A stretch of 64,000 bases of DNA, taken from NCBI RefSeq assembly GCF_014653785.1, contig NZ_BNAS01000003.1:23193-87192 (forward strand). Direction: 5' to 3'. Below the pieces are notes generated by a model that worked only from the letters and a program-made list of their open reading frames with translations, ran no database searches and had not been told where the DNA came from. Source of the stretch: Promicromonospora soli. GTDB lineage: Bacteria; Actinomycetota; Actinomycetes; Actinomycetales; Cellulomonadaceae. Made by a program: the position numbers and the translations under genes. Of the stretch, positions 17,450-40,587 are shown one piece after another (within the stretch, counting starts at the first letter, position 1; every line of letters starts with the position of its first letter).

Positions 17450-18342
17450 CCCGCCTGCCCCGCGTCGTCGCCACCGACCTCGACGGCACGCTGCTCCGCA
17501 GCGACGGCAAGGTCTCCGACCGCACCCGGCAGGTCCTCGCCGACCTGGACGCGGCCGGCGTCGAGGTGGTCTTCGTGACCGCCCGCCCGCCACGCTGGCT
17601 GACCCACCTCGCCGACACCGTCGGCGGGCACGGCCGCGTCATCTGCATCGGCGGTGCATGCGTGCTGGACGTCGCCTCCGGCGAGACGCTCGACACCTTC
17701 GGGTTCGACGACGACGCCGTGCGCGCCGTCGTGGCCGCCATCCGGGCGGCGCTGCCCCACGCCGCGCTCGCCTTCGAGCGGCCCGACGGCGTCACGTTCG
17801 ACCCGACCTACCCGAACCGGGAGCCGGCGCTCGACCCCGTCCTGTGGTCGGTGCCGGTCGAGGACACACTCGGCCTGGTCGGCGCTCGCGGACCGGTGTC
17901 CAAGATCCTCGCGCTCGACCCAGCGCGCATCCCTCCGCCGGGTATCCTCGCGGACCCGCCGGAGGAGATCCGTCTGGCGCAGGAGGAGTTCTTCGCAGCG
18001 GTGCGCGCCGCCGTGGGTGAGCATGCGCACCTGGCGTACTCGGGCGCCGTCGGCCTGGCCGAGCTCATGCCGCCCGGGGTCGACAAGGCTGCCGCCCTGG
18101 CCCGCTGGTGCGCGCGGCTCGGCGTCGACGCCGCCGACGTCTGGGCCTTCGGCGACATGCCCAACGACCTGCCGATGCTCACCTGGGCGGGCCGCGGTAT
18201 CGCCGTGGCGAACGCCCACCGCGATGTGCTGGCCGGCGCGGACGCCGTCGTCGGGCACCACGATGCCGACGGCGTGGCAGAGGAGCTGGCGGCCGTGCTG
18301 GCCCGGTCGGCCGGGGCGAGCGTGGGGGACCGGCGGGCCTAG
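17446..18342 (+). CDS. HAD-IIB (Cof-type) phosphatase
   Basis: A 298-aa cytoplasmic phosphatase of the HAD superfamily. Motif I, VVATDLDGTLL, carries the catalytic Asp pair. Motif II (VFVTARP), the motif III Lys (SKIL or DKAAAL) and motif IV (FGDMPNDLPML) are all present, with a large C2 cap between them typical of the Cof/YbiV class. The substrate is probably a sugar phosphate or nucleotide but cannot be set from sequence. TTG 17446 overlaps the toxin stop codon. TTG 17434 is an alternative. The overlap means it is translated from the toxin-antitoxin message. It ends convergent with, and overlapping, the PfkB gene. Confidence 0.85.
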   Translation: MTRLPRVVATDLDGTLLRSDGKVSDRTRQVLADLDAAGVEVVFVTARPPRWLTHLADTVGGHGRVICIGGACVLDVASGETLDTFGFDDDAVRAVVAAIRAALPHAALAFERPDGVTFDPTYPNREPALDPVLWSVPVEDTLGLVGARGPVSKILALDPARIPPPGILADPPEEIRLAQEEFFAAVRAAVGEHAHLAYSGAVGLAELMPPGVDKAAALARWCARLGVDAADVWAFGDMPNDLPMLTWAGRGIAVANAHRDVLAGADAVVGHHDADGVAEELAAVLARSAGASVGDRRA

Positions 18343-19196
18343 CCGTCCTCGTCGAGGAGCGGGCTCAGGTGCCGGCTGCCCAGGGCACGGGTCGCCTGGC
18401 GCGCACCCGCTCGGAGGCATTCCGCCGTGCCCGCGCCGCTGAGATGCGCCCCGAAGAAACCGGCGAAGAACGCGTCGCCGGCGCCGTTGGTGTCGAGCAC
18501 CTCCGCGCGCTCCGCAGGGCACTCGAACCAGCCCTCGGCGGTACGCGCGACGGCCCCGCGGGCGCCCAGCGTGCACACCACGGTGCTCGCCCCCCGCTCC
18601 AGCAGGGACGTCATGAGCTCGCGGTGGTCGTCCGTGCCGTCGTCGTTGAGGAAGACGTACGAGCACGCGTCGGCGAACGGCTGGTGGAACTCGGCGACGC
18701 CGTCGTAGTCATGCAGGTCGGTCCAGAGCGTGGCGCCGCTCGCGACGGCGGCCGGCAGCAGGTTCCGCCCGACGGCGCCCAGGTCCAGCACCACATGCTC
18801 AGCCGTAGCGACACGTGAGACGGCAGCGGGGTCGGGCTCGGGCGACGTGCCCGGGAGTGCGAGGTAGATCGAGAGGCGCTCGCCGGCGTCGGTCATGAGG
18901 TTCAGGTGCTGCTCGGACGGCCCGGCGACCCGGCGGGCCAGCACCTCGGCACCCAGCGCGTGCCTTAGCGCCGCGAGGATCAGGTCCCCCTCCGGATCGG
19001 TCCCGACGTCGGCGACGAGCGTGGCCACCACACCGAGGTCGGCGAGGTGCAGGACCTTGCCGGCGCTCGTACCGCCCAGCGTGCGCACGGACCCGCGCGC
19101 GAACACCGCATGCGGCCGGGGCTCGGGGAGGCGGTCGAGCAGGACCATCGTGTTCCACGCCGCAGGCCCGGCCACCACGATGCGAGGAGTGTTCAT
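18339..19196 (-). CDS. PfkB-family carbohydrate kinase
   Basis: A 285-aa ribokinase-fold sugar or nucleoside kinase. The N-terminal part has GGTSAGKVLHLADLGV (about residues 42-57), resembling the PfkB glycine-rich signature. The C-terminal signature DTNGAGDAFFAGFFGAHL (about 234-251) holds the catalytic Asp of the GAGD motif and the anion hole. The substrate is not determined. ATG 19196 is the first good start. The 3' end overlaps the convergent HAD phosphatase gene by 4 nt. No sugar transporter is adjacent, so the pathway is open. Confidence 0.87.
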   Translation of the reverse strand: MNTPRIVVAGPAAWNTMVLLDRLPEPRPHAVFARGSVRTLGGTSAGKVLHLADLGVVATLVADVGTDPEGDLILAALRHALGAEVLARRVAGPSEQHLNLMTDAGERLSIYLALPGTSPEPDPAAVSRVATAEHVVLDLGAVGRNLLPAAVASGATLWTDLHDYDGVAEFHQPFADACSYVFLNDDGTDDHRELMTSLLERGASTVVCTLGARGAVARTAEGWFECPAERAEVLDTNGAGDAFFAGFFGAHLSGAGTAECLRAGARQATRALGSRHLSPLLDEDG

Positions 19197-19252: not shown

Positions 19253-20206
19253 CTACTTCGGCGTCTCGAGCAGCACCACGTGCAGCTCCGCGAGGGCGGA
19301 CGGGTCGCTCACCAGGTCGACGGCGGCGATCCGCCCGTCGTGCACCACGAGGGCGAACACGCTGCGCGGCTCTCCGCCCGGCGCCCAGGCGAACCCGACC
19401 GAGCCACCGATCAGCGCGGGCACGGCAGCCGTCGCCCGACCCCGGAACGCCTCCGCCACCGCCGCCGCCCCGCGGACCTCGCGCGCCAGCAGGGGAGCGC
19501 CCCGGTCGGCGAACGCGGCCGCCGCCTCGACGGCGGACTGGTCGGCGCGCAGCACCACCTCCGGCGCGAGCAGTGCGAGCAGGCCCGCGAGGTCGCCCGT
19601 GCGCGAGGCCAGGAGGAACGCCTCGACCACCTGCCGGTCGGTTCGCGCGTCGCCGGCGGTCCGCGCCTCGGCGTCGGCACCACCCGCGGCGGCCTGAGCG
19701 GCAGGCCCGGACTGCACCCGACGCCGCCCGCGGCTCGCGAGCTGGCGCGCCGCCGCCACGGACCGGCCCAGCACGGGCGCTATCTGCTCGTACGGGACGG
19801 CGAACAGGTCGTGCAGCACGAACGCCAGGCGCTCGGCAGGGTCGAGGCTCTCCAGCACGATCTGCATCGCCACCCCGACGACGTCGGCCAGCTCCGCCTC
19901 CCGCGCCGGATCCGGGGAGCCCTCGTCCAGGATCTCCGGCGCGGTGTCGTCGGGCAGGCCGGACGGCAGGGGGCCCTCGCGGCGCGTCGACCGCGAGCGG
20001 AGCATGTCGAGGCAGATCCGGCCGGTGACCGTGGTCAGCCAGGCGGCGAGGTTGTCGATGTCCGCGTCGCCGGTGCGGTTCAGGCGCAGCCAGGTCTCCT
20101 GGAGCGCGTCGTCGGCGTCGTCGGGATTGCCGAGCAGCCGGTAGGCCACCGCACGCAGGCGGGGGCGGTGCTGCTCGAAGGCGGTGGCGAGTTCGTCGGG
20201 GCTCAT
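19253..20206 (-). CDS. ECF sigma factor with fused SnoaL-like domain (ECF41/SigJ type)
   Basis: A 317-aa sigma factor. Region 2 (about residues 8-75) includes DDADDALQETWLRL and AAWLTTVTGRICLDMLRSR. Region 4 (about 110-165) includes LDPAERLAFVLHDLFAVPYEQIAPVLGRSVAAARQLASRGR. A C-terminal NTF2/SnoaL-like domain (about 195-317) follows, ending near DPSALAEL. This fused domain marks the ECF41/SigJ groups, where it controls activity in place of a separate anti-sigma factor. The divergent neighbour is a carboxymuconolactone decarboxylase gene, the classic ECF41 partner, and an ECF41-type promoter motif lies between them. Confidence 0.9.
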   Translation of the reverse strand: MSPDELATAFEQHRPRLRAVAYRLLGNPDDADDALQETWLRLNRTGDADIDNLAAWLTTVTGRICLDMLRSRSTRREGPLPSGLPDDTAPEILDEGSPDPAREAELADVVGVAMQIVLESLDPAERLAFVLHDLFAVPYEQIAPVLGRSVAAARQLASRGRRRVQSGPAAQAAAGGADAEARTAGDARTDRQVVEAFLLASRTGDLAGLLALLAPEVVLRADQSAVEAAAAFADRGAPLLAREVRGAAAVAEAFRGRATAAVPALIGGSVGFAWAPGGEPRSVFALVVHDGRIAAVDLVSDPSALAELHVVLLETPK

Positions 20207-20207
20207 C

Positions 20208-20234
20208 TGTCACATCCTGCGTGTCGGGGGCGTC
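20208..20234 (+). promoter_or_regulatory. ECF41-type promoter of the CMD gene
   Basis: TGTCACA (20208-20214), 16 nt, then CGTC (20231-20234). This matches the -35 and -10 motif described for ECF41 sigma factors. It points toward the carboxymuconolactone decarboxylase gene, with transcription expected to start near 20241, about 60 nt before that gene. It lies 2 nt upstream of the sigma gene start codon on the other strand. Confidence 0.75.
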
Positions 20235-20302
20235 AAGGGTCTGACGGCGCGCAGAGCGCCGATGTGACCGGCCGGACCCTCGGCCACGACGATTGGATCG
20301 CG

Positions 20303-20821
20303 ATGACCACCGAGACTGCCACCCACGGCTTCGCTCCCGAAGCATCCGGCACGCCGCACCTGCGGACCGTGACACCCCGCATGAAGAACCCGGCCATGCT
20401 CGTCCCCGGCGGTGTGAAGGCGCTGGCCGGGCTGGGACAGATGGTCCACGGGCAGGGTGTGCCCGCGGCCACGCTCGAGCTCGTGCACCTCCGCGCCAGC
20501 CAGATCAACGGCTGCGGCTGGTGCATCGAGTACGGGATGCGGCAGGCGCGCAAGGCCGGCGAGTCGGAGGACCGTCTCGCGTCGGTGGCCGCCTGGCGCG
20601 AGTCGCCCTACCTCACCGAGGCAGAGTGCGCGGCGCTCGCGCTCGCGGAGGCGATGACTCGCCTCGCGGACAGCTCCGACCCGGTGCCCGACGACGTCTG
20701 GGCCGGCGCCGCGGAGCACTTCGACGAGCAGGCGCTCGCCGCGCTGGTGCTGCACATCGGGGTCACCAACCTCTACAACCGGCTCAACGTGACGACCCGC
20801 CAGGTGCCCGGCACCTGGTGA
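20303..20821 (+). CDS. Carboxymuconolactone decarboxylase/AhpD-like protein
   Basis: A 172-aa protein of the CMD/AhpD superfamily. The redox-type motif CGWCIEYG (about residues 71-78) has the CxxC pair followed by the usual E and downstream pattern of alkylhydroperoxidase-like proteins. Helices with LVHLRASQINGC precede it. The likely role is peroxide or electrophile defence rather than aromatic degradation, since no beta-ketoadipate genes are near. ATG 20303 gives MTTETATHG. It is divergent from the ECF41-type sigma gene and has its promoter motif, so it is the probable main target of that sigma factor. Confidence 0.9.
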   Translation: MTTETATHGFAPEASGTPHLRTVTPRMKNPAMLVPGGVKALAGLGQMVHGQGVPAATLELVHLRASQINGCGWCIEYGMRQARKAGESEDRLASVAAWRESPYLTEAECAALALAEAMTRLADSSDPVPDDVWAGAAEHFDEQALAALVLHIGVTNLYNRLNVTTRQVPGTW

Positions 20822-20829
20822 GCCCCCGT

Positions 20830-20873
20830 TGGTCGAGCTCGTCGAGACCCGGTGGTCTCGACAAGCTCGACCA
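20830..20873. repeat. Palindromic repeat of the GGTCGAGCTTGTCGAGACC family
   Basis: A 20-bp arm (20830-20849) is mirrored at 20854-20873 with one mismatch around CGGT. It lies between two convergent genes and can act as a bidirectional terminator. Single arms of the same sequence occur at 39516-39535 and 40568-40587, so it belongs to a dispersed repeat family. Confidence 0.8.
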
Positions 20874-20904
20874 GCGACACAAGCTCGGCCGGCGAAGCCC
20901 GAGG

Positions 20905-37315: not shown

Positions 37316-38694
37316 CGCGCCACCCCCTGGGTCCCGTCGTGTGCTCGGGCTGGTGAGCCGGCGCCCGCGTCGTCGGCCTCCGCGTCGTCGCCTCCTGCGT
37401 CGACCTGCGCATGGATCTTCGCATCGTCGACCTGCGCGTCGACCCGCGCGTCGACCCGCGCATCGACCTGCGCGTCGACCGGGACGCGGGCGCACAGCGT
37501 GGTGCCGCCGTCCTCCCCCGGCCCGACCGCCAGCGTGCCGCCCGCCGACCGCACCCGGTCCCGCATCCCGGCCAGCCCGAACCCGTCGGCGGCGTCCGGG
37601 CCCAGTCCCCGCCCGTCGTCGGACACCGTGAGCGTCACCTCCCCGCCGGCCTGCCCCAGCCGCACGACGACGGAGCCGGCCTGGGCGTGCCGGCGCACGT
37701 TCGCGAACGCCTCCTGCGCGGCCCTGAGAAGCACCACCTCGACCGCCGGCGGGAGGGCCCCGACGCCCTCGGCCTCGACTCTCACGATCAGTCCGGTCTC
37801 CTCGGCGAACCGGGTCCCGAGGCGGCCCAGCGCCTGGGGGAGCGAGGCATCCTGCAGCGCAACGGGCGCGAACGCGGCCACCAGGGCGCGGGCCTCGGCG
37901 AGGTTGTCGCGTGCGGTCTCCTCGACGACGTGCAGGCGCTCGCGCACTGCGTCGTCGTTCTTGACGTCGAGGGCGGCCGCCGCGGCTTGCGCCTGCATGA
38001 TCACGCTCGTGAACCCCTGGGCGAGGGTGTCGTGGATCTCACGGGCGAGGCGCTCGCGCTCGGCCGTGACGCCGGCCTCGTGGTTCGTCCGCGCCAGCTC
38101 GGACTGCGCGGCCTGCAGCTCGCCGAGGAGGCGCGCGTGCTCCTCCGCGCGCTGCATCGCGACGTGGAACCAGAGCCCCAGCCCGATCGAGAACACGAGC
38201 GTCACCAGCATCTGCGGCACCACCTCGCCAACGACGGCGGGGTCGAATCCGAATCGCGCCGCGATGCCGAACGCCACCACCACCGCCAGCACGGCGCAGC
38301 CGATCACGCCGTACCGGATCGACTCGAGCAGCATCCACAGTTGTGCGAACGCGATGAACAGCAGGAGCGACGCCACCCCGGCCTGCGACACCGTCACCCC
38401 TGTGCCGAGGACCAGCACCACCAGATACATCCCGGCCAGCCGCTGGTCCCGGGTCCGCGCGGCCTTCGCGCCCCACAGCAGGTAGGCCACGACGATCGCG
38501 GCCATCGCCCCGAAGGCCACGGCGAGCTGCACGCCGCGCGTGCCCTCCAGCAGCAGGGCGACGGCGGTGAGGGCGACGATCACGTAGAACGCCGCGTCCC
38601 ACCACCGCACCTGCTGGTCCCACCCGGCGTGCAGGCTCTCGACGGCGCGCTCGCCGTGCGCCGCGCCGTCGTCAGTGGTCACATCAGCCGTCAT
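37312..38694 (-). CDS. Sensor histidine kinase, DesK-like (HisKA_3)
   Basis: A 460-aa membrane sensor. About five or six transmembrane helices occupy residues 35-190. A coiled-coil and the HisKA_3 box EREIHD-like (ERERLAREIHDTLAQGF) carry the phosphorylated His, and the HATPase domain has DDGRGLGPDAADGFGLAGMRDRV. The C-terminus carries a Val-Asp-Ala-Gln/Arg repeat and an acidic tail, not usual for the family. ATG 38694 overlaps the permease end by 11 nt. The stop overlaps the response regulator. Together these genes should sense membrane or cell-envelope stress. Confidence 0.9.
   Translation of the reverse strand: MTADVTTDDGAAHGERAVESLHAGWDQQVRWWDAAFYVIVALTAVALLLEGTRGVQLAVAFGAMAAIVVAYLLWGAKAARTRDQRLAGMYLVVLVLGTGVTVSQAGVASLLLFIAFAQLWMLLESIRYGVIGCAVLAVVVAFGIAARFGFDPAVVGEVVPQMLVTLVFSIGLGLWFHVAMQRAEEHARLLGELQAAQSELARTNHEAGVTAERERLAREIHDTLAQGFTSVIMQAQAAAAALDVKNDDAVRERLHVVEETARDNLAEARALVAAFAPVALQDASLPQALGRLGTRFAEETGLIVRVEAEGVGALPPAVEVVLLRAAQEAFANVRRHAQAGSVVVRLGQAGGEVTLTVSDDGRGLGPDAADGFGLAGMRDRVRSAGGTLAVGPGEDGGTTLCARVPVDAQVDARVDARVDAQVDDAKIHAQVDAGGDDAEADDAGAGSPARAHDGTQGVAR
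37429..37480. repeat. 12-bp tandem repeat within the sensor kinase gene
   Basis: About 4.3 copies of a 12-nt unit (GACCTGCGCGTC and one-base variants) encode an in-frame Asp-Ala-Gln/Arg-Val period just past the ATPase domain. Since 12 is a multiple of 3, copy-number change keeps the frame. Confidence 0.8.
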
Positions 38695-39559
38695 CGTGCC
38701 GTCGCCACCGGAACGTCCGAGTGCCGACCACGAGCGCCACCAGCAGCCATGTCGCCAGTACAGCAGCCGTCGCACCGTGCTGCCAGGCCCCGGATGGTTC
38801 GGCGGCCGCGAAGCTGTCCGGGAGGAACACCGACCGCATGCCCTGGGCTATCCACTTGAGCGGGAACAGGGACGACAGGTCGAGCATCCAGCCCGGCAGC
38901 TGGCCGACCGGGAAGAACACTCCCGACGTGAACTGCAGCACCAGGATCGGCGTGACCACCACCGCGCTCGCGGACCGGCCGGAGCGGGGCACCGACGAGT
39001 ACGCGACGCCGCACACAGCTCCCGTCGCCGTCCCGAGCACGAATACCCAGGCGAACGTGGCCCAGTGGCCGGCGTCGTCGGGCAGCGGGACATCGAAGAG
39101 CAGCGCGGCGACCGCGAGCAGCAGGGCGGTCTGCACCAGCACGGTGACCAGCGACAGGAACACCTTGCCCAGGAAGTACGACGTAGCGGGCAGGGGCGTG
39201 GCACGGAGGCGCTTGAGCGTCCCGTCGTCCCGCTCGACGGCGATCGACATGGCGAGCGTCTGGTAGGTGGAGAGCATGATGCCGGTCGCGACCATGCCGG
39301 GCAAGAAGTACTGCGCGAAGCTGACGGTGACGCCGTTCGCGACGATCGGGTCGTCGTCGCCGAAGACCGTCGCGAAGATCGCGAGCATGACGATCGGGTA
39401 GGCGAAGCCGAAGATCATCGAGTCGCGCTCGCGCACGAACTGCAGAAGCTCGACGCCCCCGCGCACCAGCCCGAGCCGGAGCGTGCCGGGCAGCCGCCTC
39501 GCGGTGGCCCCTGTCTGGTCGAGCCTGTTGAGACCTGTCGTGCTGGCTGTCGTGCTCAT
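38684..39559 (-). CDS. ABC-2 type transporter permease
   Basis: A 291-aa six-helix ABC-2 permease that pairs with the ATPase encoded just upstream. Hydrophobic segments at about residues 50-70, 83-103, 133-158, 170-192, 200-222 and 262-282 fit the ABC2_membrane fold. RLRATPLPATSYFLGK is the conserved coupling region. The first 20 residues (STTGLNRLDQTG) are encoded by a copy of the GGTCGAG-type repeat at 39516-39535. Start ATG (39557-39559) overlaps the ATPase stop (TGATG). It is probably a drug or envelope-lipid exporter. Confidence 0.88.
   Translation of the reverse strand: MSTTASTTGLNRLDQTGATARRLPGTLRLGLVRGGVELLQFVRERDSMIFGFAYPIVMLAIFATVFGDDDPIVANGVTVSFAQYFLPGMVATGIMLSTYQTLAMSIAVERDDGTLKRLRATPLPATSYFLGKVFLSLVTVLVQTALLLAVAALLFDVPLPDDAGHWATFAWVFVLGTATGAVCGVAYSSVPRSGRSASAVVVTPILVLQFTSGVFFPVGQLPGWMLDLSSLFPLKWIAQGMRSVFLPDSFAAAEPSGAWQHGATAAVLATWLLVALVVGTRTFRWRRHDDG
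39516..39535. repeat. Dispersed repeat arm inside the permease N-terminus
   Basis: TGGTCGAGCCTGTTGAGACC matches the 20-nt arm TGGTCGAGCTTGTCGAGACC of the repeat at 20830-20873 at 18 of 20 positions. It lies within the first 15 codons of the permease gene, where it encodes part of the leader peptide-like N-terminus. Confidence 0.6.
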
Positions 39560-40567: not shown

Positions 40568-40587
40568 TGGTCGAGCTTGTCGAGACC
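40568..40587. repeat. Dispersed repeat arm upstream of the ABC operon and tRNA-Trp
   Basis: TGGTCGAGCTTGTCGAGACC is a perfect copy of the right arm (reversed) of the repeat at 20830-20873. No opposing arm is adjacent, so it is a solo element in the region between divergent transcription units. Confidence 0.7.

Follow-up and report, generated by a model that had tools for sequence, protein, structure and literature searches.

The 62-bp segment at 20208-20269 of the window (the whole 64-kb stretch of DNA that was analysed) is probably one symmetric, bidirectional promoter serving both an ECF41-like sigma factor gene and its target, a divergent CMD/AhpD-like gene. Comparison of related loci has shown both predicted half-promoters, their facing orientation, and a fixed 8-bp centre to be present in many relatives. 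As far as literature searches show, it is this fixed 8-bp facing geometry that is new; the ECF41 motif was known already, as was its occurrence before both genes.

Architecture of the divergent gene pair

The sigma and CMD genes are divergent, and their ORFs leave an intergenic gap of 96 nt (20207-20302), as described in the initial annotation, the positions of which were confirmed. Pfam supports both genes: the sigma protein matches Sigma70_r2 and Sigma70_r4_2, and the CMD protein matches the CMD domain (E 7.5e-17). The sigma protein had also been described as carrying a fused SnoaL-like domain. Although Pfam reports no SnoaL domain in it at E <= 0.001, such a C-terminal domain is supported by similarity to SigJ and by the predicted fold. 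Residues 8-303 align to M. tuberculosis SigJ (5xe7) with an E value of 1.3e-36. The AlphaFold2 model has a mean pLDDT of 84 and a pTM of 0.46, values at which the domains are reliable and their mutual arrangement is not, and it displays a predicted alpha/beta C-terminal domain. Its best Foldseek matches are SigJ and, in second place, SigG1 (7qh5), followed by other sigma factors and by NTF2/ketosteroid-isomerase folds. The best NCBIfam models are SigJ and SigX4, both under their cut-off (216.6 bits for SigJ, against a cut-off of 271). The closest named relatives of the window sigma are from Promicromonospora, with 81-84% identity.

Table 1. Features of the gene pair and of the region between the genes, in window coordinates.
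Feature	Positions	Strand	Remarks
ECF41-like sigma gene	19253-20206	minus	317 aa, ATG; sigma2, sigma4 and a supported C-terminal SnoaL/NTF2-like domain; without WLPEP and without NPDKL
CMD-ward -35, TGTCACA	20208-20214	plus	between Shine-Dalgarno and ATG of the sigma gene; 1 nt away from the latter
Likely sigma Shine-Dalgarno, AGGA	20215-20218	minus	within the CMD-ward spacer (16 nt)
CMD-ward -10, CGTC	20231-20234	plus	spacer 16 nt
Predicted sigma mRNA start, G	20234	minus	by the same 9-nt rule as for the CMD mRNA; leader 28 nt
8-nt centre between the facing -10 elements	20235-20242	no strand	length conserved, sequence hardly
Predicted CMD mRNA start, G	20243	plus	from the published -10-to-+1 distance of 9 nt; leader ~60 nt
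Sigma-ward -10, CGTC (GACG on plus)	20243-20246	minus	
Sigma-ward -35, GGTCACA	20263-20269	minus	one mismatch; spacer 16 nt
CMD/AhpD-like gene	20303-20821	plus	172 aa, ATG; CxxC motif (CGWC)

Two further features adjoin the pair. A PfkB-type kinase gene (18339-19196) lies on the same strand as the sigma gene, 56 nt downstream of it, and may be co-transcribed. Directly past the CMD stop codon stands a strong inverted repeat at 20831-20872 (GGTCGAGCTCGTCGAGACC / GGTCTCGACAAGCTCGACC); the fold energy of 20822-20895 is -45.3 kcal/mol (z -5.5). The arms of this repeat recur singly at 39517-39535 and 40569-40587 (4 matches against 0.04 expected), which suggests a palindromic repeat of the dispersed type, possibly with a terminator function.

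Two facing promoter motifs

The published ECF41 promoter, TGTCACA-N16-CGTC with a spacing of 16 +/- 1 bp, has been found to be sigma-dependent in two species (PMC3426412). The initial annotation recognised this motif as aimed at the CMD gene, and an exact match is indeed present on the plus strand at 20208-20234. It missed a second motif, GGTCACA-N16-CGTC, which differs from the consensus by one mismatch, lies on the minus strand at 20269-20243, and is directed to the sigma gene. Together they form a module that reads TGTCACA-N16-CGTC-N8-GACG-N16-TGTGACC, with the order, from left to right, of CMD-ward -35, CMD-ward -10, 8 nt, sigma-ward -10 and sigma-ward -35, the facing -10 elements being separated by exactly 8 nt. 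As the facing motif aims at the sigma gene, self-activation is predicted just as well as activation of the CMD gene, and the view of the motif as a promoter for the CMD gene only, with the CMD gene as primary target, is not supported. TGTCACA-N14-18-CGTC is expected 0.28 times per 64 kb; the motif alone is therefore weak evidence, and its placement in the 96-nt gap is what counts. A third such motif, another GGTCACA-N16-CGTC, is found in the window at 38677-38703 on the plus strand.

A genome scan for further targets, as had been suggested, does return eight matches of TGTCACA-N15-17-CGTC in the genome of the window. About 14 would be expected (scaled from dinucleotide shuffles of the window), and the reversed-pattern control gives 0; since the two controls disagree, no enrichment is claimed. 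By ORF inspection, only two of the eight matches look to be placed as promoters: the window site, and a site on contig C12 before a second SnoaL-type sigma gene. This second sigma (L012 / L008), which also lacks the WLPEP motif considered below, has an exact ECF41 motif before it. Its divergent neighbour, recognised by sequence as DoxX-like, has a one-mismatch motif; there, the two motifs are 1 nt apart and back to back, not facing.

Constancy of the geometry among relatives

Loci for comparison were protein-selected, i.e., chosen by similarity of the sigma factor and independently of the motif. In a first set of 61 such loci, with gaps of -27 to 60 allowed, a facing pair is present in 15, and the gap is 8 in all 15; none of 12,200 shuffles yields one. 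An enlarged, overlapping set comprises 78 window-clade loci without WLPEP (of 83 listed loci, five carrying WLPEP were left out; L052-L057 were set aside as genus duplicates and L082-L086 as too remote). With gaps of 0 to 30 allowed, it contains 17 strict pairs, again all with gap 8 (shuffles 0/3,900). These loci are not independent, since the window's own genus supplies nine of the 17 strict pairs; the other eight come from a second genus (two) and a third genus (one) of the same family, Rhodococcus (two), Pseudactinotalea (one), and other members of the same class (two). Under relaxed matching, the 78 loci give 33 pairs, of which 23 have gap 8, five gap 9, two gap 12, and one each gaps 21, 26 and 29 (shuffles 2/3,900), and no facing pair is seen in the remaining 45.

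Pattern searches in which the gap was left free between 0 and 30 extend this picture. The class-wide search finds 25 places in 24 of 394 genomes, with gap 8 in 21, gap 24 in three and gap 20 in one; the gap-8 modules span six families by the codes of the search tool, and the gap-20 locus, next to a WLPEP sigma, is regarded as due to chance. The phylum-wide search is positive in nine of 396 genomes, with gap 8 in three (each of which the class-wide search had returned too), gap 9 in two and gap 11 in four, and the reversed-pattern control gives 0 in both searches. Thirty pattern-search loci were fetched; the module has a sigma gene next to it in 29, and the last one runs off a contig end. Other centre lengths are grouped: 11 nt in L092-L095 (four loci, one family), 9 nt in L090 and L091 (two families), and 24 nt in the related loci L111, L112 and L113, the partners of which are FAD-binding oxidoreductases.

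The module is also found on plasmids. Plasmid records with a relative of the window sigma number 155, of which 119 are from Rhizobium. Eleven of the 12 Rhizobium plasmid loci fetched harbor the module, always with gap 8 (gaps 6-12 allowed), and a full module occurs in 0 of the 6 actinobacterial plasmid loci fetched. In three Rhizobium modules checked against the annotated start, the sigma gene begins 1 nt away, just as it does in the window, and the partner is a divergent CMD gene in all eight Rhizobium records with gene tables. Perfect or near-perfect copies are present in two laboratory-tractable species, in Rhizobium johnstonii 3841 (pRL11; RL_RS31870/RL_RS31875) and in R. etli.

The partner genes beside the module vary, and include CMD, NmrA/epimerase-like, FAD_binding_4, MMPL, Polyketide_cyc2, ABC_tran, and a DUF1059-like small protein. 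These assignments rely on Pfam for nine proteins and on BLAST to the window CMD or inspection for the rest; the DUF1059-like match scores 20.2 bits, just under the cut-off, and the protein from L064 gives no Pfam match. In L098, L099, L103 and L104, all from one family, an MMPL-family transporter (Pfam on one of them) replaces the CMD gene beside the module.

The 38 gap-8 modules reduce to 19 non-redundant ones at 75% sigma identity. In most of these 19, the centre reads A-N6-T; its six inner columns hold 0.02-0.53 bits, against 2 bits for the box cores, which the pattern itself required. The CMD-ward spacer is pyrimidine-rich, as would be expected of a stretch whose opposite strand encodes the sigma Shine-Dalgarno.

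Placement of the sigma factor among ECF groups

The window pair shares several traits with the ECF41/COE systems described in PMC3426412: sigma2 and sigma4 followed by a C-terminal extension, here a SnoaL/NTF2-like domain; a neighbouring CxxC CMD gene as the COE gene; and the same predicted promoter, the motif being exact toward the CMD gene and having one mismatch toward the sigma gene. In contrast to those systems, the window sigma has neither WLPEP nor NPDKL. WLPEP is absent from its sigma2-sigma4 linker (RREGPLPSGLPDDTAPEI); the genome encodes five further ECF41-type sigmas, which do have it (L010, L011, L013, L014 and L015). No NPDKL-type motif is seen near its C-terminus, where the corresponding position reads SDPSAL, DPERL-like in many relatives. 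A sigma tree of 135 sequences separates a window side, with 95 sequences without and one with WLPEP, from another side with 36 sequences with and three without it (SH-aLRT 99); this is a quick LG+G4 tree, which includes pattern-selected loci and leaves out sequences shorter than 220 aa. The window sigma is hence best described, from its sequence, as ECF41-like and outside the clade of WLPEP-bearing sigmas. Full ECF41 membership, as initially annotated, overstates the case: the architecture, the CMD partner and the promoter agree with it, whereas WLPEP, NPDKL, the SigJ cut-off and the WLPEP clade do not.

No sigma that stands next to a module with a gap of 8 to 11 carries WLPEP, and on the tree the gap-8 modules occur here and there across the window side and nowhere on the WLPEP side. 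A single origin of the geometry was considered and rejected, the tree needing at least 17 changes between gap 8 and other states, a number at which gain and loss of gap 8 are not distinguishable. WLPEP loci, taken as a control, show a facing pair in 0/32, and in 0/36 when both directions are searched with at most one mismatch; two of the 34 loci of the canonical control set were left out for lacking WLPEP. This control is weak because few such loci have any motif upstream of the sigma gene (partner-ward in two and sigma-ward in five of the 36).

A SnoaL_2 fusion without NPDKL, as in the window sigma, is also known from the ECF56 sigma SigG1 of Streptomyces tsukubaensis, which has a cognate, co-transcribed anti-sigma, RsfG (PMC7730460). 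The window pair differs from SigG1-RsfG in that no RsfG-like anti-sigma gene adjoins it: the co-oriented gene downstream of the sigma gene encodes the PfkB kinase, and neither this nor the other flanking gene scanned, a RarD-type EamA transporter, is anti-sigma-like. The expectation, drawn from the domain fusion, that there is no separate anti-sigma goes too far, SigG1 having RsfG in spite of the same fusion.

Other explanations of the module

The promoter at 20208-20234 might drive the CMD gene only, the opposite motif being a chance resemblance. This would agree with the CMD-ward motif being the only exact one in the window and the sigma-ward one having a mismatch, and with the best studied ECF41 systems, in which the sole target is the CMD gene, whether transcribed by itself or in one operon with the sigma gene (PMC3426412). 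However, the sigma-ward motif is kept at the same offset in 9/9 Promicromonospora-type loci, two of which (L027 and L028) match it without a mismatch, and perfect double modules are present in Rhodococcus and Rhizobium, which makes a one-way promoter very unlikely. It is scarcely credible that the inverted repeat made by the boxes serves a dimeric regulator as its operator, or folds into a hairpin, instead of being a sigma-dependent promoter pair. Each arm fits a promoter shown to depend on ECF41 sigmas, in its two boxes as well as in the 16 nt between them. Moreover, 48 bp separate the outer boxes, and the spacers, unlike the strands of a stem, show free variation and no mutual complementarity.

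Two separate, non-interacting promoters may also have come to lie in a short gap, the 8 bp being a side effect of the leader length and of where the Shine-Dalgarno sits, or else a legacy of common descent. The distance between the sigma start codon and the module hardly varies, which, together with the sigma Shine-Dalgarno in the CMD-ward spacer, suggests that the region is compact for other reasons, and Wecke et al. give the motif as frequent before both genes (PMC3426412). Nevertheless, leader limits would fix one arm to the sigma gene and leave the exact 8 bp to the other arm unexplained, the distance to the partner being variable. Gap 8 also persists across sigmas down to ~41% identity, across different partner families and across two phyla, while the spacers change. 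Independent promoters are consequently considered unlikely.

Comparison with known promoters

The divergent arrangement accounts for 55 of 373 ECF41 loci in the survey of Wecke et al. (2012, PMC3426412), with the motif preceding the sigma gene in 36 and the COE gene in 41 of these 55. In the accessible text of that paper, neither a fixed distance between the sigma and COE motifs nor a treatment of both as a single promoter was found, and the terms "bidirectional", "symmetr" and "palindrom" are absent from its main text. RpoE9 (ECF41) of S. meliloti and its target SMb20029 share the promoter motif and a CMD target, the sole one there, with a start 9 nt after the -10 (PMC6180224, PMC3616915). 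Unlike in the window, the S. meliloti CMD and sigma genes are co-oriented and probably form an operon.

Bidirectional sigma70 promoters give rise to divergent starts from one pseudo-symmetric site, which polymerase can occupy in either orientation but on which opposed polymerases cannot bind together (PMC10268837, PMC12825309). Their preferred start separations are 18, and also 10 and 23 bp (PMC12825309), for a reason comparable to the one proposed below for the window. The 9 bp predicted for the window are near their 10-bp class and fall within the 7-25 bp by which bidirectional promoters are defined; the predicted site likewise has the sequence symmetry. The two kinds differ in the origin of this symmetry, which in sigma70 promoters is that of the common AT-rich -10 of the housekeeping sigma (PMC10268837, PMC12825309), whereas the window would hold two complete ECF promoters that face each other, each having a -35 box to itself. 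They also differ in that one of the window products would be the very sigma that reads the site. No description of an alternative sigma using a bidirectional promoter to couple its own synthesis with that of its target was found in the literature searched, which is not proof of absence.

Proposed mode of action

In the bidirectional promoter proposed here, polymerase carrying the window sigma would sit on the module in either orientation, and nearly the same DNA stretch would be melted in both. Each firing would start either the CMD mRNA (+1 G20243) or the sigma mRNA (+1 G20234, minus strand), from starts predicted to be 9 bp apart. The underlying distance was taken over from outside the window clade, namely from ECF41 systems of the operon type in proteobacteria and Bacillus. 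In S. meliloti, the motif ends 9 nt upstream of a mapped start (PMC3616915), and the promoter is printed as CGTC, eight bases and G (PMC6180224, Table 1, the bold mark of which is not legible in text form). In PMC3426412, leaders of 22 and 23 nt after the start G stand against tabulated distances of 31 and 32, and our own subtraction suggests the same 8-base distance.

With a gap of 8 and eight bases between -10 and +1, each +1 G would pair with the terminal C of the opposite CGTC, and the two starts would thus define each other. Since the start regions would overlap, the two orientations are expected to exclude each other. The sigma would switch on itself and its target from one common site, with self-activation limited by competition, and its activity would presumably be gated by the SnoaL-like domain sensing some signal. 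For the CxxC CMD protein, a role in peroxide/disulfide chemistry is probable.

A broader proposal, to which we give an even chance, is that of a self-wired reciprocal ECF promoter, at which polymerase picks sigma or target at each firing. Module and sigma would then constitute a portable cassette that both Actinomycetota and Rhizobiaceae have retained, and that is used, over gaps of 8 to 11, with no fewer than seven kinds of partner. If this is true, a 62-bp element would set the ratio of regulator to product and limit runaway self-activation, all without a separate regulator. The geometry would also provide a sequence rule for finding the targets of this uncharacterised ECF41-like clade.
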